From: Adineta ricciae
Lineage: Eukaryota > Rotifera > Eurotatoria > Adinetida > Adinetidae
DNA: 64,000 nt
Direction of reading: 5' to 3'
Assembly (NCBI GenBank): GCA_905250025.1
Contig: CAJNOJ010000148.1
Location: 62,001-126,000 of the forward strand
In this document: one piece after another, positions 10,101 through 45,647 of the stretch
Numbering within the stretch: position 1 is the first letter of the stretch
Layout of the letters: the number at the start of each line of letters is the position of its first letter
Translations under genes and position numbers: made by a program
Notes under the pieces: generated by a model
What the model was told of the DNA's origin: nothing
The model's input: only the letters and a program-made list of their open reading frames with translations
The model's database searches: none

Positions 10101-10187
10101 GTATCAACAGAAGGAAAGAAAAAAACCTGACGACAACATTCTTTTTTATGTCTGTTTTTTTCTTTTGATGTAAGACGAAGAAAACAG
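7111..10187. other. 3-kb gene-free stretch
   Basis: Only short, composition-driven open frames on both strands and AT-rich DNA. It contains the telomere-like tract at 8212-8236. I see no RNA gene, transposase or domain here. Confidence 0.5.
8212..8236 (+). repeat. Interstitial telomere-like G-rich tract
   Basis: Four to five tandem units mixing AGGGTG, TGAGGG and TGTGGG. The last unit equals the TGTGGG reported for Adineta telomeres. It lies in the middle of a gene-free stretch and may mark a former chromosome end or break repair. Confidence 0.5.
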
Positions 10188-10194
10188 TATAAAT
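10188..10194 (+). promoter_or_regulatory. TATA-like box for the glycohydrolase gene
   Basis: TATAAAT 31 bp before the ATG at 10225, in an otherwise gene-free upstream region. If real, the leader would be very short. Confidence 0.3.
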
Positions 10195-10224
10195 ACAATC
10201 GTCTTGTTATTCGGAAATAATTCT

Positions 10225-11529
10225 ATGTCTTCTAACGAAATCAACTTATCAGATCGTGTGTCTGGTTCATTGTTTGGTCTATTAATTTGCGATTCACTCG
10301 GAACTGCTGTTGAATGTCAGACATCAGGCTCATTTGATCCAGTGAAAACATTACGAGGTGGTGGAAAGTTTCAATTAAAGCCTGGTCAATTTACCGATGA
10401 TGGATCTATGGCATTATGCTTAGCGTTCGCTCTATTGGACGACAATGACGATTCAACAACTCATCAGTCAGTCAAACAAATGAATCTTTATCGACGTTGG
10501 TATGAAAATGGTTATTTATCATCGAATGGCGAATGTTTTGATATCGGAATAACTGTTCGAGTTGCTTTGAATAAGTTTATTTCCGATTCGGATAAACAGT
10601 CAATCAGTTCAACTGCCTATTACGGAAATACAAGTCAAAAAGCATCGGGCAATGGTTCGTTGATGCGTTTAGCATCGATTCCATTACTCTATCGCGAAAA
10701 TCCTTTGCAAGCAATGATCGAAGCGATGAATTCATCAAAAACAACGCATGCTTCATCTTTCTGCTTGGATTGTTGTCGAATCTACACTAGTTTAATCATT
10801 GGTGCTTTACAAGGATTTTCAAAAAATGATTTATTGAATGACGAGAAACTGTTTCTTCCAAATGGCTTACCGGATGATTATTGGATCATCAATACAGTCG
10901 AAACAGATGTTTTAAAAGTTATGAAGGGATCATATAAACATCTGAATCCACCAGAAATCAAAGCTTCTGGATTTGTTATCGAAACAATGGAAGCGGCACT
11001 GTGGGCTTTTTATCATTCAAACTCGTTCGAAGAAGGGGCATTGAAAGCAGTGAACTTAGGAGATGATGCTGACACAGTGGGAGCGATTTATGGAATGTTA
11101 GCAGGTGCTTTTTATGGTATTGATCAGATTCCGAAGGAGTGGAGAGACAAATGTTATTTAACAGATCTTGTGCAAACAGTAGCAGATGAATTACTAGCAC
11201 AATCGCAAAGCAGAACAAAAGTATCGATGATTTATCAGAAGGTGGTGGAAGTTTACGACCAATTAGCGAAATTCTATTCAGGAACAATCAAGCGTCGTGT
11301 TTTGCCTTGTCCGAAACAATACAAATCAGTCGAAGAATTAAATGAAGATGTTGAACAACTTCATTTAATTTACGCGAATAGTCTCAAATCTGTCATTGAT
11401 GAAGACAAACAAATAATTGTGAGTCGTTGTGATGGGATTTTCAAGCAATTTTTAAGTCTTATCGACGATGATCAACAGTCATTATCTCTGAAGTGGTCAA
11501 GAAATGTAAAAGGATTCTCAATGAAATAA
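10225..11529 (+). CDS. ADP-ribosylglycohydrolase (DraG/ARH family)
   Basis: 434 residues, single exon. The frame is open seven codons upstream, but only TTG lies there; the first ATG (MSSNEINLSDR) is at 10225. Family motifs: GSLFGLLICDSLG near the N-terminus, GQFTDDGSMAL (D58, D59, Mg-binding), KASGNGSLMR in the middle, and NLGDDADTVGAIYGMLAG (D280-D283) near the end of the catalytic domain. These are the two metal-binding clusters of the DraG/ARH fold, which removes ADP-ribose from proteins or small molecules. TDDG replaces the commoner TDDT, as in many bacterial-type members. About 120 extra residues follow the domain and have no family I recognise. The lack of introns and the bacterial-like motifs suggest transfer (inference). 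It is the only ADP-ribose eraser seen in a window that also holds an ADP-ribosyltransferase. Confidence 0.85.
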   Translation: MSSNEINLSDRVSGSLFGLLICDSLGTAVECQTSGSFDPVKTLRGGGKFQLKPGQFTDDGSMALCLAFALLDDNDDSTTHQSVKQMNLYRRWYENGYLSSNGECFDIGITVRVALNKFISDSDKQSISSTAYYGNTSQKASGNGSLMRLASIPLLYRENPLQAMIEAMNSSKTTHASSFCLDCCRIYTSLIIGALQGFSKNDLLNDEKLFLPNGLPDDYWIINTVETDVLKVMKGSYKHLNPPEIKASGFVIETMEAALWAFYHSNSFEEGALKAVNLGDDADTVGAIYGMLAGAFYGIDQIPKEWRDKCYLTDLVQTVADELLAQSQSRTKVSMIYQKVVEVYDQLAKFYSGTIKRRVLPCPKQYKSVEELNEDVEQLHLIYANSLKSVIDEDKQIIVSRCDGIFKQFLSLIDDDQQSLSLKWSRNVKGFSMK

Positions 11530-29822: not shown

Positions 29823-32800
29823 ATGGAAAACAGATTCGTCGACACAAGTGATACTCTATATGGAGACGAAAGTACCAGTCCGATCTACGGCTATCAAGAC
29901 CAAGTTATTACAACATTGGAAGAAGCTATTCAAGGCATCAGACACGAAATCCTTCGAATTGATGATTACGTAACGCAAGCAAAGCAAAAATACAGGAGAC
30001 CATGTATATTAACAGAGGATGAGTTTGCATCCATCTATCTTTATACAATGACCGGCTCAGGTTTTTCCTCAAGGCTAAACGGTCGTCTTCGAGCCATGGA
30101 CAAAGGACCGTTAAAACCATGGTTTCCATACTTAAAGCTCTTCATCACGGCTCTCAATAAGTTACCTTCGTTCAAAGGTATTGTGTGGCGCGGTAGGCCG
30201 GAGATAATTGATGCTAATTCTGATGATAAGCACGAAACTTGGTGGGGAGTAACTTCGACTTCGAAAGATCCCAAGATTGTCGAACCTTATCTTGGAAAAT
30301 CTGGTACTGGTACTATTTATGCTATTGAAGTCATAAATGGAAAAGATATTTCGCAATATTCAGCTGTTCTTAGCCAGGAACAGGAAATTATCCTCATGCC
30401 AGGTACACGAGTACACCGTAAAAGTGAACCAGTTGAAATCGTCAACAAACCGTTCCTATACTCGTTCGAAGAATGGTAAGTATATTATTTGACTATCCTT
30501 CCTTTTGATTTATTTGGGAAATATTGACGGCTAAAAGACTTAGCATATGCTGCAACGGATCTATCGATACTGTTTTTTCTTGCTTTCAGTACGAGTATTC
30601 CACAAGGCAAACATGTCATGCTGTCTTATGAGAACAATGACAAAGCTGTTGTTTTGGAAATATATCAATATCTGTATAATAGGTCGATACCAGTTTGGTT
30701 CGACGAAAATAGATCGAATAATAATATTTATGACAGGTACGAGTATTTCTGTAAACATTAAATGGTTGATGCTATCGGTATATCTCTCTTTCAGCCTTGC
30801 AATTGGAGTAGAAAATGCAGCATTCGTCGTATGTTTTCTCAGTCCGGAATACGAAAGCTCAGCACGCTCTCAAATAGAACTCGAATATGCGCAAAAGCGT
30901 CATAAGAAGATCATTCCATGTCTAACTAAAACGGAAGAAACTTGGAGATCGATCCGTTGGCTGAGTCCTATTCTGGAGGGAGTGAAACAAGAAAATTTTC
31001 GGCATTTCTCACCGTCCAATGATATTGATTCTGAAATGGATTATTTATTGTTGATACTTCAAAAAATGGTATATGTACCGGAAGAAAATTCAGAACGACT
31101 CAACATTCGATTCGAACTGATTAAATATGAATATTTATGCAACAGTAAAATAGAACGATTCATGAATCCAGCGGTAACTTTTCCAATCGACCAGAGTTAT
31201 ATCAATTTGGTCATCGTAGAAACCAAAGAAACTCGGGAGAAAGAGGGGAAACTTAAAGAAACTCAAAACATTGGAACAATTCTTGGCACGTACGAAGATA
31301 TATATGGCAGTAAGACTCCAATTGAGGTTAAAGATATTTTCGAAAAATGCAAAGATCAGAACAAACGCATATTAGTTTTTGGTCGCGCTGGTATTGGAAA
31401 GTCAACATTTTGTCGATATGCTGCCTATCAATGGGCAACCAGTGCAATTTGGTCAGAATATGAACTGGTTGTGGTCGTTCCTTTACGATCTCTAACAGGA
31501 CCAAAGTATAACGCTAACAAAGAGTATAATCTCGTGGACATTTTGATAAATCAATATTTTTTCGATCGATCTCTATCAACTGAGGAGAAGAATACGTTAG
31601 AAAATAAGATTCACACAGGCCGAATTCTGTGGCTACTCGATGGTTATGATGAAATAGTACAGGAAACATCTTTACATCTGCAAAACTTACTCGAACGGCT
31701 GCTCAAAACTCCACATCATATCGTTACATCTCGTCCATATATGAATACTTTATCGTACTTCGTGCACATGGAAATCACAGGCTTCACAAAAGAAAACGTC
31801 AACAACTACATCAAGTTGTTCTTCACTCAGTTAGGAAACTCATCACACAAAGGTGACAACTTACTAAACTTTCTCAGATCGAAACCCAAGATTTGGGGCA
31901 TCGCACATATTCCCATCAATCTCGAGCTCATTTGTAGCACTTGGAGCAATATTGATTGGACACAAACAAAAACAGTAACGATTACAATACTATATGATAG
32001 ATTGACCGACTGGATCTGCCGTCGATACCTCGAGAAACAAAAAAAGATGTCACCAATCGAAACTACTCGAATGGATAAAACAGATGTTTATGACGAATGT
32101 CGTAAGGAGTTGGCGTTCTTGGAGAATCTCGCCTTCCAAGGAATGGAAAACAATGTTATTCTTCTAGGTCCACAATTACTAAAAGAGGCCCAAAAAGAGA
32201 GCAGATGCAAGTTAAAAGAGTGTCCGAACTTATTCAATGTTGGGTTACTAAAATCATACGACTCAAATTCAGGTAGCATTGGAACACGAATCGAAGCAGA
32301 TAAGCACTATTACTTCGTTCATCTCAGTTTTCAAGAACACTTTGCCGCTCGTTACTTAGCCAACGCGCTTTCGAATACTAAACGCGACCAAGCAACGCAA
32401 TTCATTCGTGAAAACAAATATAATAGGAGATATCAATTACTCTTTACATTTTTATCCGGTTTGTTGAACGAAGATCAAGAACCTAAATGCAATCGAGCAT
32501 TTTGGGATGCTGTACTCAATGAACCTTTGGACATCATCGGCGTGCGACACGTGGCGCTTGTAATTCAGTGTCTAGATGAAGCAGTACCAGCTCAAACATT
32601 CATTGAGTCACAACAATTGCTTGAGAAGATCACACAATGGCTGGAATACGCTTTAAGCAGTGGATCGCAATATTTATCCAACCTTCTCACACAGACACTA
32701 CGCACATGCCATGCAATTTGCAACGAACCACGATTCCAACAGTCCATAGTCCAACTATTCAACAATCAACTATTCCCCAATCGAAACATGGTATTGTCAT

Positions 32801-34842
32801 TTATATCAAATATTCCACTTACCAACCCCATCGAACCGCTACTACTAGCGTTACGCGAGGCACTCAAGAGCCACGATCGTCGGGTGCGAAGTAGTGCATG
32901 TGACGCAGTTGGTCGTATGGGTGAAAAAGCAGTCACGAAGGAACTGATCGATGGACTTGTCGAGGCACTCAAGACCGACGATGGTCTGGTGCGAAGTAGT
33001 GCATGTGACGCAGTTGGTTGTATGGGTGAAAAAGCAGCGACGAAGGAAGTGATCGATGGGCTTCTCCAGGCATTCAGGAGCGACGATGGCCCGGTGAGGA
33101 GTAGTGCATGTGACGCACTTGTTAATATTGGTGAAAAAACAGCCACGAAGGAAGTGGTCGATGGGCTTCTCGAGGCATTCAAGAGGGGCGATGGTTGGGT
33201 GAGAAGTGAGGCATGTGACGCACTTGTTGGTATTATTGAAAAAGCAGCCACGAAGGAAGTGATCGATGGATTTCTCGAGGCACTCAGGAGCGACAATTAT
33301 TCCGTGAGGAGTAGTGCATCTGACGCACTTGGTCGTATGGGTGAAAAAGCAGCCACGAAGGAAGCGATCGATGGAATTCGCGAGGCACTCAAGAGCGACG
33401 ATGATCGGGTGAGAAGTGAGGCATGTGACGCACTTGTTGGTATTATTGAAAAAGCAGCCACGAAGGAAGTGATCGATGGATTTCTCGAGGCACTCAAGAG
33501 CGACAATTATGCCGTGAGGAGTAGTGCATGTAACGCACTTGTTCATATTGGTGAAAAAGCAGCGACGAAGGAAGTGATTGATGGGCTTCTCAAGGCACTC
33601 AGGATCGGCGATGGTCGGGTGAGGAGTAATGCATGTTACGCACTTGGTCGTATGGGCGAAAAAGCAGCCACGAAGGAAGCGATCGATGGGCTTCTCGAGG
33701 CACTCAAGAGCGACGATGGTCTGGTGCGAAGTAGTGCATGTGACGCAGTTGGTCGTATGGGTGAAAAAGCAGCGACGAAGGAAGTGATCGATGGGCTTCT
33801 CGAGGCACTCAAGAGCGACGGTGGTTGGGTGAGAATAGGTGCATGTTGGGCACTTGTTCATATTGGTGAAAAAGCAGCGACGAAGGAAGTGATCGATGGG
33901 CTTCTCGAGGCACTCAAGAGCGACGATGATGGGGTGAGAAGTAGTGCATGTAAGGCACTTGTTCATATTGGTGAAAAAGCAGCGACGAAGGAAGTGATCG
34001 ATGGGCTTCTCGAGGCATTCAGGAGCGACAATTATTCCGTGAGGAGTAGTGCATGTTACGCACTTGGTCGTATGGGTGAAAAAGCAGCGACGAAGGAAGT
34101 GATCGATGGGCTTCTCGAGGCACTCAAGAGCGACGGTGGTTGGGTGAGAAGTAGTGCATGTGACTCACTTGTTGGTATTATTGAAAAAGCAGCGACGAAG
34201 GAAGTGATCGATGGATTTCTCGAGGCAGCCAGGAGCGACAATTATTCCGTGAGAAGTGAGGCATGCGACGCACTTGTTCAAATTGGTGAAAAAGCAGCCA
34301 TGAAGGAAGTGATCATTGGCTTGGGCTGTGCTTTGGAATGTGAGTGGAGTAAAAAGCAAGTATCATTAGCTGCTTATGCATTTGCGATGGATGAGCGAGT
34401 AAGACGATGTCTCATTGTAATGTCTGCGTTAGGAGCGTTTTGGGATCCAGATGTCAAATCAGGTGAGGCGGGAATGATCGCTACGGAATGTGTTCACCGG
34501 CGATTGATATCACCGGTCAGGCTTATCAAAGTTTGTATCGAGAGTGGGGAGCAGATGTTTTTGCATGGTGCTATCTATGCATGTTTTATCACTGAAACTG
34601 CGGTCGCTATTCATGGCAGTTGCTTGTGTGTTTTTGATAATGAAGGAGTGAGAAAAATATATATTCCGTCGGGTAGTGAGAGTTTAGTGGATGAACTTCG
34701 AAAGGTTGCGTGTCGAGCGATCAGTCAGCTTGACTTGAAAGTTCACATAGATTGGAATAGACCGGGAAAGCGAAAGCTGAGTGATAATGCCAATCCGTAT
34801 GAAAGAGGTCGAAAGTCAAAATGTCGTAAATGTAGCAAATAA
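29823..34842 (+). CDS. ADP-ribosyltransferase-TIR-NACHT-HEAT protein, copy 1
   Basis: Exons 29823-30475, 30590-30736 and 30795-34842 join in frame across canonical introns of 114 and 58 bp: 1615 residues. Residues 1-217 are an R-S-E ADP-ribosyltransferase: R123 in GIVWRGRPE, S-T-S at 145-147, E186-x-E188 in SQEQEIILMPGT. About 218-320 is a TIR domain: KHVMLSYENNDKAVV, IPVWFDEN, AIGVENAAFVVCFLSPEY, with a Glu in SQIELEYAQ where NAD-cleaving TIRs have their catalytic Glu. NACHT follows: Walker A GRAGIGKST near 463, Walker B LWLLDGYDEI near 546, VTSRPY and HLSFQEHFAARYLANAL. Then 14 HEAT-like repeats (about 947-1436) and about 180 C-terminal residues of unknown type. Likely an intracellular STAND sensor whose repeats detect something and whose N-terminal enzymes act on NAD or ADP-ribosylate targets (inference). 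The longest raw frame starts at an ATG inside intron 1 and misses the ART and half the TIR. Confidence 0.9.
32833..34302 (+). repeat. 105-bp coding repeat array, 14 units
   Basis: Fourteen units of exactly 105 bp (35 residues, consensus KEVIDGLLEALKSDD then VRSSACDALGRMGEKAAT). Units are alike at DNA level and two-unit blocks recur: units ending VGIIEKAAT followed by one with SDNYSVRS or SDNYAVRS appear three times (units 4-5, 6-7, 13-14). This points to recent unequal exchange inside the gene. Confidence 0.95.
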
Positions 34843-36400
34843 TGGTGTTGATAGTTAGAAGTATTCAAAATGAGAGGTGATTAAAACAGCGATCTTTTTG
34901 ATACACACCCTCACACCTGGACAGACGCTCAATGTTCGTCAGTAGAATTGGTGACTTTGCCTTTTTGTATGTGTTTCTTATTGTATCTCATACGTAGATG
35001 CCTGTAAATGATTTTTTTTCTTTGTACTTTCACACCTTGCTGTTTATGTTGTCTTATGTGTTGGTTTTGGTAATGATACTATTTCATTTCTATATGTCGT
35101 TTGTTTTCTTTGAAAAAATAGCTTATACTTTTTATAGATGATATTCTTAGATAGCTCTTCCTCGATGAACGTACGAATTTTGCTCGTTAGCATAAAAATT
35201 CAAATCCAAATGATGTCCGATTTGTATAGATAAAACAGTGTCAACATTACTTTTAACGTATTAATATGTAAATAGTGATGGATATACGTAGGTCTCGTTT
35301 TTGTTGAGTTTTATGCTAAAACGCCATACCGCAGAATACTTCTTTTTCATCTTTTATATTTTCTTGCATCGAATATGTTGCTGTTCATCATGCATATGGA
35401 CGAATCGCTTGGAAATGAGAACTAAATCTTCACATGGACATGGCTTTGAAAGTTTTGATATCGAATATCAAATATATTAATAAGCACTGGTAGTGCGTCT
35501 GTCGTTGACACATATAAAAAAAGAGAGGAGCGTGAAAATAAAAACATTTTAGGCAAAAGATTTCGTATCAACTAAGTTCTAAAGGAAAAAGTTTTGTTGT
35601 ATGCATTATCATGCATCGTCTGTTAATTTACAGTGCAGGTCTGCCGCGGGTTTATCATTCAAAACTGCATTTACGAGACAGGCAACTGAATTCAATATTT
35701 TTCAGATTTGACAAATCTCGACAGTGATAAATAATGCAAGTGTACTCACACCAGATGAGTTGTGTGCGAACGATCAAAGTTATAAAATAGGATTTGAAAG
35801 TGCATAAAGACTTCATAATGTGATCCATAGGGATCGAAAGATAAAAGAATATCTAAAAAAGTTGGATGAATCATTCGTTAAAATTTTTATGCATATTTTG
35901 ATAAGAATTCTGACATCAATATATTTCAGTTATGATGATATTGAGTAATGTTGCGTCCTCGCTACTTGTTTCTACAAAAAGAAGAATGATGTGGTATGTT
36001 TTTACGAGGTACACCTCGATTTTGACCGTCTGATATTGTAGAATCAGAAAAAAGATTACAAGTTCAATATGATTTAATGATTCTTCCACCCTGAACAATT
36101 AATTTTATTGTTATATTTTCATTTTTTCAAAGACCAATTCAGTGACATGGTGCAAATGAGATCGTCAAAACTTTTAACAAGTGATTAAGTTCAAATGAAT
36201 AAACATCAAAATCCATATTTGTCTTATGCGTCACCCTGAAGAAGATGAAGGATGCGATGGCATTTAACTTCAGCTCTGCCTATCCATCGTCGTTTCGAAG
36301 CGACTTCACTAACAGTTACAACTAAGATAAGACATTTCAACAAATATAAAAACAACACAGTATCGTTTAGATTAGATATATCTCAGCGGTGAGAAAAAAT
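34843..36400. other. 3' flank of copy 1, matched by 42,098-43,999
   Basis: Non-coding. It aligns nearly end to end with the flank of copy 2, apart from two length differences (see 42,387 and 43,628). A CACCCTCACACC word at 34,905 recalls the telomere-like tracts but is short. Confidence 0.6.
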
Positions 36401-36828
36401 ATGAAAGAGATAAATCACATTTTGTTGTGTATAATAGCAATCCAAGCTGCCAATTCTGACACTGGACTTCGTACTCAACAAGGAACTATCTATGGTCGAC
36501 AAACTGAAGCATCCATTGAATATCTCGGGTACCGACTCGTTTGCCTTTTGTAATGACTCATTCTCTATGCCTCCTTTAGTATTCAATATGCAAAAGTAAT
36601 TCGATGGAAACCGCCCATCGACCTTGCTTCAGAGAAGTTTGCAAATGGTTCATACCATGCAGTATCATTTGGTCCATGCTGTTTACAGCCGAAAACTGCT
36701 GATTATATTCCGAATCAAAATGAAGAATGTCTCTATCTAAATATTTACAAACCAATTATTCCATCGAATTCGTCTTTGTTGCCCGTACTTGTTTGGATTC
36801 ACGGCGGTGCTCATAATCATGGTTGCTC
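36401..36828 (+). CDS. Type-B carboxylesterase, 5' part (cut by NN)
   Basis: Exon 36401-36528 and exon 36580-36828 join across a 51-bp GT-AG intron. The start gives a signal peptide ([19 protein letters not shown]), then [33 protein letters not shown] and [16 protein letters not shown], which are the early motifs of the carboxylesterase/cholinesterase/neuroligin fold including the oxyanion-hole HGG. It stops at the NN. The 3' piece at 51,070-51,728 may be the rest of this same gene (see findings). Secreted or membrane-side esterase by family. Confidence 0.85.
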
Positions 36829-36830
36829 NN
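36829..36830. other. Contig join (NN)
   Basis: The sequence switches from mid-carboxylesterase to the last residues of an ADP-ribosyltransferase exon. Confidence 0.95.
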
Positions 36831-36831
36831 G

Positions 36832-39800
36832 CTCGAAACTGAACCATTTGTAATCAACAACGAATCATTCATATACTCATTCGAAGAATGGTAAGTATAT
36901 TATTTGACTATCCTTCCTTTTGATTTATTTGGGAAATATTGACGGCTAAAAGACTTAGCATATGTTGCAACAGATTTACGGATACTGTTTTTTCTTGCTT
37001 TCAGTACGAGTATTCCACAAGGCAAACATGTCATGTTGTCCTATGAGAACAATGACAAAGCTGTTGTTTTGCAAATATATCAATATCTGCATACTAGATC
37101 GATACCAGTTTGGTTCGACGAAAATATATCGAATAATAATATTTATGACAGGTATGAATATTTCCGTAAACATTAAATGGTTGATGCTATCGGTATATCT
37201 CTGTTTCAGCCTTGCAATTGGAGTAAAAAATGCAGCATTCGTCGTATGTTTTCTCAGTCCAGAATACGAAAGCTCAGCGCGCTCTCAAATAGAACTCCAA
37301 TATGCGCAAAAGTGTTATAAGAAGATCGTTCCCTGTCTAACTAAAACGGAAGAAACTTGGAGATCGATCGGCTGGTTGAGTGCTATTCTGGAGGGAGTGA
37401 AACAAGAAGATTTTCGGCATTTCTCACCGTCGGATGATATTGATTTTGAAATGGATAATTTATTGTGGACACTTCAAAATATGGTATATGTACCGGAAGA
37501 AAATTCAGAACGACTCAACATTCGATTCGAACTGATCAAATATCAATATTTATGCAACAGTAAAATAGAACGATTCATGAATCCAGCGGTAACTTTTCCA
37601 ATCGACCAGAGTTATATCAATTTGGCCATCGTAGAAACCAAAGAAACTCGGGAGAAAGAGGAGAAACTTAAAGAAACTCAAAACATTGGAACAATTATTG
37701 ACACGTACGAAGATATATATGGCAGTAAGACTCCAATTGAGGTTGAAGATATTTTCGAAAAATGCAAAGATCAGAACAAACGCATATTAGTTTTCGGTCG
37801 CGCTGGTATTGGAAAGTCAACATTTTGTCGATATGCTGCCTATCAATGGGCAACCGGTGCAATTTGGCCAGAATATGAACTGGTTGTGCTCGTTCCTTTA
37901 CGATCTCTAACAGGATCAAAGTATAACGCTAACAAAGAGTATAATCTCGTGGACATCTTGATAAATCAATATTTTTTCGATCGATCTCTACCAGTTGAGG
38001 AGAAGAATACGTTAGAAAATAAGATTCACACAGGCCGAATCTTGTGGCTACTCGATGGTTATGATGAAATAGTACAGGAAACATCTTCACACCTGCAAAA
38101 CTTACTTGAACGGCTGCTCAAAACCCCACATCATATCGTCACATCTCGTCCATACATGAACACTTTATCGTACTTCGTGCACATGGAAATCACAGGTTTC
38201 ACCGAAGAAAACATCAATAACTATATCGAGTTGTTCTTCAATCAGTTAGACAACTCATCACACCAAGGTGACAACTTACTAAACTTTCTCAGATCGAAAC
38301 CCAGGATTTGGGGCATCGCACATATTCCCATCAATCTCGAGCTCATTTGTAGTACTTGGAGCAATATTGATTGGACACAAACAAAAACAGTAACGATTAC
38401 AGTACTATATGACAGATTGGCCGAATGGATCTGCCGTCGATACCTCGAGAAACAAAAAAAGATGTCACCAATCAAAACTAATCGAATGAATAAAACCGAT
38501 GTTTATGACGAATGTCGTAAGGAGTTGGCGTTCTTGGAGAATCTCGCCTTCCTAGGAATGGAAAACAATGTCACTCTTCTAGGTCCACAATTATTAAAAA
38601 AGGCCCAAAAAGAGAGCAGATGCAAGTTGAACGACTGTCCGGACTTATTCAATGTTGGGCTACTAAAATCATACGATTCAAATTCAGGTGGCATTGGAAC
38701 ACGAATCACAGCAGATAAGCACTATTACTTCGTTCACCTCAGCTTTCAAGAACACTTTGCCGCTCGTTACTTAGCCAATGCGCTTTCCAATAGTACACGC
38801 GACCAAGCAAAGCAATTCATACGCGAACACAAATATAATCAACGATATCAATTACTCTTTATATTTTTATCCGGTTTAATAAACGACGACCAAGAAACTA
38901 ACTGCAATCGACCATTTTGGGACGCTATACTCAATGATCCTTTGGATATCATCGGCGCCCGACACCTGGCGCTTATAATTCAGTGTCTAGATGAAACAGC
39001 ACTACCTCAAACATTCATTCAGTCACAACAACTACTCGAGAAGATCATGCAATGGCTCGAGTACGCTTTACGCAGTGGATCGCGATATCTAACCAAACTT
39101 TTCGACCAGACACTTAGTACATGTAATGCAATTTGCAATGAACCACGAGTACAACAGACAATAGTCCGACTATTGAACAATCAACAACTCACCAATCGAC
39201 ACATGGTATTTTCATTTATATCCAAAATTCCACTTACCAACCCCATCGAACCGCTCCTACTATCACTACGCCAGGCACTGAGAAGCGACGATGTTTCCGT
39301 GAGAAGTTGGGCATGTGACACACTTGGCGGTATTGGTGAAAAAGCAGCGACCAAGGAAGTGATGGATGGACTTCTCGAAGCGTTGACGACCGGTGATAAT
39401 TCCCTGAGAAGTACTGCATGTGACGCACTTAGTCGTATGGGTAAAAAAGCAGCCACGAAGGAAGTGATAGATGCACTTATCGAGGCACTAAGGAGCGAAA
39501 ATGATGCCGTGCGAAGTTGGGCTTGTGACGCACTTGTTGGTATGGGTGAAAAAGCAGCCACCAAGCAGGTGATTGACAGACTTGTCGAGGCACTCAGGAG
39601 CGAAAATGATGCCGTGAGAAGTTGGGCATGTAACGCACTTGGTCGGATGGGTGAAAAAGCAGCTACCAAGGAAGTGATCGAGCGACTAGTCGAAGCGTTG
39701 AGGAGCGACGATAATTCCGTGAGAAGTTCGGCATGTGAGGCACTTGTTGGTATTGGTGAAAAAGCCGCCACGAAGGAAGTGATCGATGGACTTGTTCAGG

Positions 39801-42097
39801 CACTCAGGAGCGACAATGATTCCGCGAGAACTTGGGCATGCTACACACTCGATCGTATCGGTGACAACGCAGCCACCAAGGAAGTGATCGATGGGCTAGT
39901 CGCCGCACTCAGGAGCGACGATAATTCCGCGAGAAGTTCGGCATGTGAGGCACTTGTTGGTATCGGTGAAAAAGCAGCCACGAAGGAAGTGATTGATGGA
40001 CTTGTCGAGGCACTCAGGAGCAACGATGAATCCGTCAGAAGTTCGGCATGTAACGCACTTGGTGGTATTGGTGACAAAGCAGCGACCAAGGAAGTGATCG
40101 ATGGACTAGTCGACGCACTCAGGAGCAACGATGAATCCGTGAGAAGTTGGGCATGTAACGCACTTGGTCGTATCGGTGAAAAAGCAGCGACCAATGAAGT
40201 GATCGATGAACTTGTCGAGGCACTCAGGAGCGACAATGATTCCGTGAGAAGTTCGGCATGTAACGCACTTGGTCGCATGGGTGAAAACGCAGCGACCAAG
40301 GAAGTGATCGATGGACTAGTCGAGGCACTTAGGAGCAACGATGAATCCGTGAGAAGTTGGGCATGTAACGCACTTGGTTGTATTGGTGACAAAGCAGCCA
40401 CGAAGGAAGTGATTGATGGACTAGTCGAGGCACTCAGGAGCAACGATGAATCCGTGAGAACTTCGGCATGTAACGCACTTGGTGGTATGGGTGAAAAAGC
40501 AGCGACCAAGGAAGTGATGGATGGACTTCTCGAATCGTTGACGACCTATGATAATTCCCTGAGAAGTAGTGCATGTGACGCTCTTAGTCGTATGGGTAAA
40601 AAGGCAGCCACGAAGGAAGTGATAGATGCACTTATCGAGGCGCTATGGAGCGAAAATGATGCCGTGAGAAGTTGGGCTTGTCACGCACTTGTTCGTATGG
40701 CTGGAAAAGCAGCCACGAAGGAACTGATTGATGGACTTATCAAGGCATTTAGGAGCGAGAATGATGCCGTGATAAGTCTTGCATGTTTCGCACTTCTTCG
40801 TATGGGTAAAAAAGCAGCCGCGAAGGAAGTGATAGATCGACTTCTCGATGTACTGAGGAGCGACGATAAATGCTTGAGAAAAATAGCATGTGTCGCATTT
40901 GGTCGTATGGGTGAAAAAGCCGCCACGAAGCAGGTGATTGAAGGACTTGTCGAGGCACTTATGAGCCGCAATGATTCCGTGAGACGATTGTCATGTTACG
41001 CACTTGATCATATGGGTGAAAGACAAGGCACGAAGAAAGTGATCGATGGACTTGTTGAGGCACTAAGGAGCGACAATGATTCCGTGAGAAGTCGTGCATG
41101 TGAGGCAGTTGGTCGGATGGGTGAAGAAGCAGCGATGAAGGAAGTGATTGATGGACTTCTCGAAGCGCTGAGGAGCGAAGATGAATCTGTGAGAAGTTGT
41201 GCATGTGGCGCTCTTGGTCGTATGGGTGAAAAAGCAGCGGCCAAGGAAGTGATCGTTGGACTTACCGAGGCACTTCGTAGCTACGATGAATACGTGAGAA
41301 GTAGCGCATGTTACGCACTTGTTGATATGGCTGAAAAAGTAGCCACGAAGGAAGCCATCGATGGACTTTTCGAAGCACTCAGGAGCGACGATAAATACGT
41401 GAGAAGTAGCGCATGTGACGCACTTGTTGATATAGGTGAAAAAGCAGCCACCAAGGAAGTGATCGATGGACTTGTCGAAGCGTTGAGGAGCGACGATAAT
41501 TCCGTGAGAACAAGCGCATGTGGCATACTGTGCCGTATGGGTGAAAAAGCAGCCACCAAGGAAGTGATCATTAGTTTGGACTGGGCTTTGGTATGCGAGT
41601 GGAGTAATAAGCAGGAGTCATTGAGTGGTTATACTTGGATGATGGGCGAGCGAGTAAGATATTATCTCATTGTAATGTCTGCGTTAGGAGTGTTTTGGGA
41701 CTCAGAGTTGCAAATTGGAGACGCGGGTGAAATCGCTATGGATTGTGTTCAGCGGCAATTGATATCCCCAGTTAGACTTGTCAAAGTTTATATGGAGAGA
41801 GGGGAGCAGATGTTTTTGCGTGGTGCTATCTATGCATGTGTTATCACTGAAACTGCGCTCGCTATTCATGGCAGTTGCTTGTGTATTTATGATAGGGAAG
41901 GTGTGAGAAAAGTATCTATTCCGCCGGGTAGTGAGAGTTTGGTGGATGAACTTCGAAAGGGTGCGTTTCGAGCGATCGGCCAGCTTGATTTGAAAGTTCA
42001 CATAGATTGGAATAGACCGGGAAAGCGAGAGCTGAGTGATAATACCAATCCGTATGAAAGAGGTCGAAAATTAAGATGTCGTAAATATAGCAAATAA
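36832..42097 (+). CDS. ADP-ribosyltransferase-TIR-NACHT-HEAT protein, copy 2 (5' cut by NN)
   Basis: Exons 36832-36890 (only the last 20 residues of the ART domain, ending FIYSFEE), 37005-37151 and 37210-42097; 1697 residues remain. Splice sites match copy 1 exactly, with introns of 114 and 58 bp. TIR, NACHT (GRAGIGKST, LWLLDGYDEI) and the C-terminal domain are close to copy 1. The repeat domain has 22 units instead of 14, and this explains the whole 840-bp length difference. The frame is intact with no stop. The short ART remnant differs more from copy 1 than the rest does (EPFVINNESF against EPVEIVNKPF), so ART domains may diverge faster. Same inferred sensor role as copy 1. Confidence 0.88.
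39248..41557 (+). repeat. 105-bp coding repeat array, 22 units
   Basis: Twenty-two units of exactly 105 bp, consensus KEVIDGLVEALRSDD then VRSSACNALGRMGEKAAT. Units 2-3 (DGLLEALTTGDNSLRS, DALIEALRSENDAVRSW) recur as units 13-14 (DGLLESLTTYDNSLRS, DALIEALWSENDAVRSW), so a block of about 11 units was duplicated. Units 15-17 are the most diverged. Confidence 0.95.
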
Positions 42098-43999: not shown

Positions 44000-45647
44000 A
44001 TGAAAGAGATAAGTCACATTTTGTTGTTTATAATAGCAATCCGTGCTGCCAATTCTGACACTGGACTTCGTACTCAACAAGGAATTATCTATGGTCGACA
44101 AACTGAAGCATCCATTGAATATCTCGGGTACCGACTCGTTTACCTTTTGTAATGACTCATTCTCTATGCCTCCTTTAGTATTCAATACGCAAAAGTAATT
44201 CGATGGAAACCGCCCATCGATGTTGCTTCAGAGAAGTTTGCAAATGGTTCATACCATGCAGTATCATTTGGTCCATGCTGTCTACAGCCGAAAACTCCTG
44301 ATTATATTCCGAATCAAAATGAAGAATGTCTGTATCTAAATATTTACAAACCAATTATTCCATCGAATTCGTCTTTGTTGCCCGTACTTGTTTGGATTCA
44401 CGGCGGTGCTCATAATCATGGTTGCTCATCAGAAGCCATTCCATTGATATTCAACGGCACGAATATTATCGCTTATTCACCATCAGGTCAACCAGTCATT
44501 GTTGTCACCATAAACTATCGTTTGGGTGTATTAGCAGATATGTTCCTAAATGAGTTAGTCGAAGAAGATCCACAATGGTCAACAGCAGGTAATTATATGT
44601 ATCTCGATATGTTGTCTGCATTACGATGGAGATGCAAACAGTGTGACTATATTTGGTCAAAGTGCTGGAGGTTTGTCTGTAACTGACCTAGGTGCTGTTA
44701 AAGGATCTTCTGGTCTCTATCGAACAGCAATAAGTGAATCCGGCTTGGGTTCACCTGGAACATCGTCATCGTACTATAATATAAGTTTCGCTCTCAATGC
44801 TTCGAATTCAGTTGTTCAACGATTGCATTGTGATTATGAAGGTAGACGACGATTACTTACATGCATTCGCAATGCTTCCTTTGATGATCTTTTGCGCACA
44901 TATGATTCTCGATATACACGACCTATTATTGAGAATTATTTCTTTCCGTTGTATCCACTATTGGCAATTAGTAGCGGTCAATATAATAATGTGAGTTTGA
45001 TCATGGGTAATAATGACTATGAACAACCGATTTGTTTCGAACATCCATTGATGACTTCGAGTGAAGCTTTAACAAAAATTGCTGCTACCTTTTCTCCCGA
45101 ACGAAGTCCGATGATCGCAGACTATTACCATTTGCATAACTGTTCCATGAGACCTACTGCTAATGCTACTCGTTGCTGTGATATCGTTCGTCGAATATTA
45201 ATGGATTCTATATTTGACTGTGATATTCGTCGATTATTCAATGCATTTTATGCAAAATATGGCGCACAGTATGAACAGAATAAATTATTCTCTTATCATT
45301 TGAACTGTTACCCTCTATGTCCTATTGTACAGCAAGAAGGTATATGCCGCCATTCATCTGAAATTCCATTTGTATTCGGAACTGTTAGTGACGTCGATTC
45401 GCAAGAGCAATTTCATTGTACGTGGAATAATCAAACGCGATTTTTTTCGAACAATATCATTTCACATTGGATCAGTATCGCTCAGACGGGCAGACCACTT
45501 CATACATGGCCAAGTTATGATCCATTGGTACCGAAATATTTTCACGTTACACCCGATCAAGGCTTTTTACCTACGGATTGGAATAGAAATTGCTCGATTT
45601 TTGATAAGATTGAGGCAGAACGTGCGAGAGAATTATTTCAATTCTGA
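44000..45647 (+). CDS. Type-B carboxylesterase, copy 2, with an internal deletion
   Basis: Exon 44000-44127 (signal peptide MKEISHILLFIIAIRAANS), 51-bp intron, exon from 44179. Motifs in order: [48 protein letters not shown], then GDANSVTIFGQSAGG with the nucleophile Ser in G-Q-S-A-G, GNNDYEQP with the probable acid, and CRHSSEIPFVFG with the catalytic His. Between ALRW and GDANSV the usual roughly ten residues are missing and the frame shifts (near 44,632), so this copy looks disabled or the assembly lost about 30-40 bp. No intron signals explain the gap. Secreted esterase or neuroligin-like by family; substrate unknown. Confidence 0.8.

Follow-up and report, generated by a model that had tools for sequence, protein, structure and literature searches.

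Gene structure of two neighbouring copies

The window analysed here is a stretch of 64,000 nucleotides of the bdelloid rotifer Adineta ricciae (C148:62001-126000, where C148 is the window's contig in the 130-Mb assembly scanned as the genome), and it contains two neighbouring genes on the forward strand, copy 1 and copy 2, whose predicted products combine an ADP-ribosyltransferase (ART) domain, a TIR domain, a NACHT NTPase domain and HEAT repeats. In copy 1, the segments 29823-30475, 30590-30736 and 30795-34842 are spliced by two GT-AG introns into a single open frame of 1615 amino acids, in agreement with the single spliced protein proposed in a preliminary description of this DNA. Exon 1 (29823-30475) carries the ART domain (29865-30443) with the codons for R123 (30189-30191), S145 (30255-30257), E186 (30378-30380) and E188 (30384-30386), and is separated by intron 1 (30476-30589) from exon 2 (30590-30736), which encodes the first part of the TIR domain as judged by splicing and Pfam. 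Intron 2 (30737-30794, 58 nt) falls at the same place in the paralogues at C868, C894, C502 and C161. Exon 3 (30795-34842) holds the remainder of the TIR domain (to 31110, with the Glu295 codon at 30877-30879), the NACHT domain with the helical part behind it (31315-32574; Pfam NACHT core 31366-31824), 14 HEAT repeats of 105 nt each (32884-34353), a C-terminal tail (34354-34839) and the stop codon.

The same ART-TIR junction is found in the public A. ricciae protein P0001, which shows no difference from the window gene over residues 1-372 and a single difference in the 558 positions of residues 373-930. Two further public proteins, P0003 and P0023, of which the first 480 residues were searched, are 100% identical to loci C894 and C161, respectively, where the three-exon layout recurs; the automatic names of the public proteins include 'NAD(P)(+)--arginine ADP-ribosyltransferase'. 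At the level of the predicted gene model, the ART-TIR-NACHT-HEAT fusion is confirmed.

The sequence at the first junction bears on whether the locus could yield two products, with retention of intron 1 giving a stand-alone ART protein of 218 amino acids and the fused form being perhaps the minor one. With intron 1 left in the transcript, the ART frame would end after one extra codon (W, then TAA at 30477-30479), so that the donor GTAAGT overlaps the stop (TGG TAA), and the genome is rich in ART exons, with at least 152 matches (a lower bound, with 150 of 274 candidates scored). However, reading back in frame from the TIR exon meets a stop before any ATG in both copies (a TGA at the 23rd codon back, located at 30525 in copy 1, with one CTG only), fused public proteins occur in four species, and the distance from ART to NACHT is near constant, at 889-890 nt, in four loci. 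We consider such a two-product locus unlikely.

Copy 2 is interrupted by an assembly gap, written NN (36829-36830). A carboxylesterase fragment runs up to the gap, and behind it only the final 60 nt of an ART exon remain (36831-36890, identified by comparison with the public protein P0002). Downstream lie exon 2 (37005-37151), with the first part of the TIR domain, and exon 3 (37210-42097), with the TIR domain continuing to 37525, NACHT at 37730-38989, 22 HEAT repeats at 39299-41608 and the C-terminal tail. P0002 is 99.88% identical to copy 2 over 1697 amino acids, a stretch that the ART exon precedes; both window genes are therefore most likely four-domain genes as far as their predicted products go, the truncation of copy 2 being an assembly break. 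The second copy reported next door is thus present at 36831-42097, although nearly all of its ART exon is missing here. The carboxylesterase fragment preceding the gap (36440-36828) is found again downstream of copy 2 (44156-45647), perhaps as part of a tandem duplication unit that takes in the esterase.

Domains, catalytic residues and the repeat array

Pfam analysis of the window protein identified TIR_2 (2.9e-16, residues 227-314), NACHT (5.2e-15, residues 458-610) and HEAT_2 (2.7e-85, in 10 stretches), all above their cut-offs. The window's own ART exon scored below the Pfam ART gathering score (E 0.0016, 18.3 bits compared with a cut-off of 22.3), and in a second scan it matched no Pfam family at 1e-3. 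Among 30 ART loci extracted from the genome, which include that of the window, 27 exons were aligned (all but L015, L019 and L028, the last of which is partial), and 25 of these 27 matched PF01129 at E <= 1e-3; a profile of the family retrieved rat ART2 (1og3) at E 1.2e-9 and, after it, bacterial proteins including Vis and HopU1. The ART domain that the preliminary description expected from profile search is accordingly not recovered from the window exon alone and is recovered through its family profile and relatives. Due to the window exon falling below the PF01129 gathering score, the domain is best regarded as a relative of the ARTC family and not a strict member. The motif residues were found at exactly the positions described, R123, S145-T-S147 and E186-x-E188, and across the 27 ART exons R123, S145 and E188 are invariant while E186 is kept in at least 90%. 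No N-terminal hydrophobic leader was seen in the first 60 residues by Kyte-Doolittle averages, which, together with the fusion to a receptor, argues that the receptor-fused ART is probably intracellular.

The nucleotide-binding and TIR residues are equally intact. The NACHT domain contains a Walker A motif (GRAGIGKS) and a Walker B motif (LDGYDE), and a TIR profile matched the CRISPR-associated TIR protein Cat1 (E 2e-6) with the glutamates aligned; this glutamate is catalytic in Cat1. Ten of the 11 public four-domain proteins were aligned (all but P0108, whose ART match is partial; two of the ten, P0001 and P0002, represent the two window genes in another record), and in all ten R123, S145, E186, E188, TIR E295-L296, Walker A G463-K469 and Walker B L548-E553 are invariant. 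The TIR domain with its NAD-cleavage glutamate, the NACHT domain with both Walker motifs and the HEAT-like repeats are all present as claimed. For the C-terminal tail, described beforehand as a conserved unknown domain, no Pfam family was found above cut-off, and its conservation is limited, the tail occurring in 7 of 120 homologues.

Selection was compared between copies and among ART exons. Between copy 1 and copy 2, dN/dS was 0.49 for TIR, 0.34 for NACHT and 0.48 for the helical part, and it was below 1 in all nine ART pairs (0.17-0.88, with dS saturated in two). Since one ART pair reached 0.88 and the TIR-NACHT linker (70 codons) gave 1.25 on 6 changes, these ratios suggest constraint on the effector and NTPase parts that is moderate only.

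Searches of three rotifer proteins against PADLOC returned models of the HEAT type and gave weak matches to TIR models (ThsB, SAVED-TIR and effector TIR; best 1e-7), and the proteins were not assigned to any of the systems concerned. NCBIfam matches were confined to the repeats: P0001 exceeded the cut-off of TIGR00029 (30S S20, 34.6 compared with 33 bits), which was taken as chance, and lay close below that of NF045662 (70.4 compared with 75).

The HEAT array consists of similar 35-amino-acid units, 14 in copy 1 and 22 in copy 2. With the last repeat of each copy left out, the repeats of copy 1 have a mean nucleotide identity of 0.849, those of copy 2 one of 0.795, and the value between the copies is 0.783, whereas their NACHT domains are 0.933 identical; the repeats have therefore turned over faster than NACHT, and their homogenisation, which is clear in copy 1, is slight in copy 2. 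At the amino-acid level, the mean identity among repeats is 0.73 for P0001 and 0.66 for P0002; the threshold for highly conserved repeats in a fungal survey of NOD-like receptors (NLRs) is more than 85% identity (PMC4986451). Repeat number also differs between near-identical sequences, with 14 in the window gene and 18 in P0001, whose repeats 5-8 have no exact match in the window array (32884-34353); the difference is either a repeat-number polymorphism or an assembly collapse.

Sequence entropy within the repeat peaks at positions 4, 7, 11, 26, 32, 34 and 35, and the spacing of positions 4, 7 and 11 would put them on the same face of a helix. A pooled comparison at hypervariable positions (pN/pS 1.75 compared with 0.52) was dropped as circular, and for this reason each copy was tested at the positions that the other had singled out, using pairwise counts that are not independent among repeats. 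At positions chosen in copy 1, copy 2 gave a pN/pS of 1.91 compared with 0.51 elsewhere, a value matched by 3 of 200 random position sets (a control covering copy 2 only); at positions chosen in copy 2, copy 1 gave 6.25 compared with 0.83 elsewhere, on few synonymous changes. The window's pooled entropy profile correlated with that of 11 of 14 other proteins (rho 0.37-0.82), P0001 and P0002, which are the same genes, being among them; in P0054, P0096 and P0076, the repeat pattern picked out too few units for this comparison.

Relatives in bdelloids and the possible source of the NACHT-HEAT core

Listed genome matches to NACHT numbered 40, of which the 17 with E <= 1e-12 were counted as strong loci (the next match was at 2.1e-9, and the other 23 were left out). 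Among the matches listed, an ART exon lies 376-1178 nt upstream on the same strand in 9 of the 17; of the remainder, copy 2 has its ART tail, C564 is at a contig start, and no ART was listed upstream at C398, C422 (two loci), C441, C550 and C593. As 6 of 17 strong paralogues lack a listed ART, this domain appears not to be essential to the NACHT family. A TIR domain between ART and NACHT was found at six loci, the window gene, C868, C894, C502, C161 and C449, and not at C222 or C362 (C133, C564 and C593 were left out of this check). In the roughly 1.5 kb upstream of NACHT, C398, C550 and C441 have a TIR match and no ART, and the two C422 loci have no match to the first 480 residues of the window protein. 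Six such loci, and the same domain order in other species, make it very improbable that the fusion is an artefact of assembly or annotation, even with the gap in the neighbouring copy and the discrepancy in repeat count with P0001 pointing that way.

In the best 120 of 210 public homologues, 11 proteins combine ART, TIR and NACHT, 25 ART and NACHT, and 58 TIR and NACHT, while 26 have NACHT alone. By protein name, these 11 come from Adineta ricciae, A. steineri, Rotaria magnacalcarata and R. socialis, so that the domain order sought in other bdelloids is found in four named species. A Rotaria socialis protein, P0254, carries a precomputed Pfam caspase entry (PF00656) beside NACHT and HEAT, and because this entry stands on the same core, effectors seem to have been swapped on it. 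The existence of relatives with ART only or TIR only implies that each domain may work alone, and a single-enzyme receptor, in which TIR is an assembly or adaptor module and ART the effector, or the reverse, is a substantial alternative, if one we hold to be short of even chances. TIR adaptors are common in animals; on the other side, the residues expected for catalysis in ART and in TIR do not vary among the ten aligned four-domain proteins from the four species.

Genes of the ADP-ribosylglycohydrolase family, which includes erasers of arginine ADP-ribosylation, were also observed. One lies in the window on the forward strand (10174-11523, PF03747, 1.3e-61), about 18 kb upstream of copy 1, no link to the NLR-like genes being claimed, and a second match is on the same contig (C148:55610-56485); the genome has 58 matches, counted exon by exon. 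At five places (two at C470, and one each at C143, C140 and C360), an ART exon lies 0.47-0.66 kb upstream of such a match on the same strand, and these pairs are perhaps writer-eraser fusion genes.

Bacterial relatives of the core were sought in a GTDB scan, which identified six loci in four metagenome-assembled genomes (MAGs), 27-31% identical to the window NACHT and labelled Proteobacteria, Parachlamydiaceae, Verrucomicrobia and Gammaproteobacteria (three loci in the last). Three MAG proteins were scanned with Pfam: all had NACHT, two had HEAT above cut-off, and none had ART. One of the loci (L042) had a HEAT_2 score of 21.5 compared with a cut-off of 27.7 bits and a caspase-type PADLOC match, and another (L043) a trypsin-like Pfam domain. 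Parachlamydia sp. AcF125 alone has 21 related proteins listed, and closer relatives include P0195, 46% identical to the named rotifer proteins P0021 and P0061; P0195 and P0256 are each on a 2.28-Mb contig. A NACHT-HEAT protein named Holosporaceae bacterium 'Namur' (P0263) was also noted, possibly from a symbiont carrying the same core. Chlamydiota and Holosporaceae live inside cells.

Environmental 'TIR-NACHT-HEAT' homologues from ENA/JGI were rejected as bacterial genes. Of 16 TIR matches compared by coordinate, three are full length and are named rotifer proteins (P0054, P0021 and P0036), and the remaining 13, of which 12 come from metagenomes and one (P0073) is named Rotaria, start at window-protein residue 264-269 (11 matches) or at 254 and 259. 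Intron 2 falls after residue 267 and some of the 13 carry intron-like translation in front, so that they look like rotifer DNA in which one exon was called as a gene.

Two quick trees place the rotifer set beside sequences such as P0195, and four environmental rows in one tree and one in the other fall inside the rotifer clade. In a more careful tree of 37 hand-picked rows, 15 of them bdelloid, 14 bdelloid rows group at 99/95 with P0252 outside, and all 15 are together in 50% of 200 bootstraps. Approximately unbiased (AU) tests rejected bdelloids, fungi and a cnidarian as one group (p-AU 0.025; 0.010 without the cnidarian). The grouping of bdelloids with the cnidarian was not rejected; the tree itself already sets them apart from the rest with support 45/96, the cnidarian being a single, very long branch. 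As the AU tests leave this animal grouping, transfer of the core from bacteria is a lead suggested by the trees, and not a result; a parallel is the reported transfer of NLRs from endosymbionts to Mortierellomycota fungi (PMC11291939). A fuller scenario, in which bdelloids took a bacterial-type NACHT-HEAT conflict module, added TIR and the ART exon and evolved a repeat-shuffling family whose activated oligomer bears two chemically distinct NAD effectors, as an animal counterpart of fungal NLRs, is speculative and in our judgement rather doubtful.

Predicted working and comparison with known systems

The structural hallmarks of NLR/STAND proteins are present: NACHT with Walker A and Walker B motifs, C-terminal HEAT repeats (14 and 22) and, as N-terminal domains, TIR and ART. 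With slightly better than even confidence, these genes are predicted to encode bdelloid receptors of the NLR type with TIR and ART as two NAD-using effectors. The HEAT solenoid, with its few hypervariable positions, would recognise a ligand; NACHT would then swap nucleotide and oligomerise as in other NLRs, probably in the cytosol, clustering the N-terminal effectors. Because TIR is expected to cleave NAD+ and ART to use NAD+ for the transfer of ADP-ribose to arginines of target proteins, a single activated receptor could spend NAD in two ways, and the cell would be shut down or killed, or an invader disabled. Of the immune sensor with a double NAD effector put forward initially, the joined domains, their key residues and the NLR-like arrangement are supported, while its immune role and use of NAD are predictions.

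Several observations weigh against this reading: the window's own ART exon misses the Pfam cut-off, ART appears dispensable in the paralogue family, one ART pair and the TIR-NACHT linker have the high dN/dS values given above, the entropy profiles of copy 1 and copy 2 are weakly correlated (rho 0.31, p 0.07), and TIR domains can act as adaptors. The genes might also serve a purpose other than immunity, as an NAD-spending switch in bdelloid desiccation, DNA damage or dormancy responses. The ART and ADP-ribosylglycohydrolase families are large across this genome, and an A. vaga transcriptome study reports enrichment of ADP-ribosylation among genes under-expressed in spaceflight (PMC12220480). 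Tandem copies, quick turnover and variable repeat positions are better suited to the recognition of changing targets, as is effector swapping (ART, TIR and, in P0254, a caspase type), and a stress switch is judged improbable.

The preliminary description did not know the combination as a described system, and no paper on two NAD-consuming effectors in one NLR-like chain was found in titles, abstract starts and available passages of the papers listed from the literature outside preprints and most subscription papers. Within the same scope, no paper was found on a bdelloid ADP-ribosyltransferase, on a rotifer one together with NACHT and TIR, or on an ADP-ribosyltransferase domain with a NACHT domain, and papers on bdelloid NOD-like receptors included none, by title or abstract start, on ART-TIR-NACHT-HEAT. 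Nor, within that scope, was such a chain described in PMC7159879 or PMC3710099, the papers in which ADP-ribosyltransferase, NACHT, HEAT repeats and TIR occur together. If the proposed receptor is real, it would link animal immunity to the way in which bacteria and plants base their defence on NAD, and would represent a fast-changing receptor family in bdelloids, animals long thought asexual and whose pathogen recognition is an open question.

Compared with ARTC ecto-ADP-ribosyltransferases such as rat ART2, the rotifer ART shares the R-S-ExE motif and the profile similarity (E 1.2e-9), but it has no hydrophobic leader and is fused to a receptor. In animal TIR NADases and plant TIR-NLRs, as in the rotifer gene, a TIR domain with a glutamate in the catalytic place precedes a STAND or clustering module; these proteins have LRR, WD or SAM domains, whereas the rotifer gene has HEAT repeats and a second NAD-using domain in front. 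Bacterial NACHT/STAND conflict systems also combine NACHT with HEAT and other N-terminal effectors (TIR, caspase and trypsin types; PMC8195603), but the rotifer genes have introns and an ART exon, a domain absent from the three MAG proteins scanned. Fungal NLRs such as Podospora nwd/hnwd and the ANK and TPR types, as described in the survey cited above (PMC4986451), differ in that the rotifer gene is animal, has HEAT in place of WD, ANK or TPR repeats and has ART and TIR as effectors. They resemble it in their STAND NTPase core with exchangeable N-terminal effectors, and may also do so in C-terminal repeats of high internal identity and varying number with few variable positions per repeat, the fungal repeats being conserved, polymorphic in length and under positive selection at few positions.

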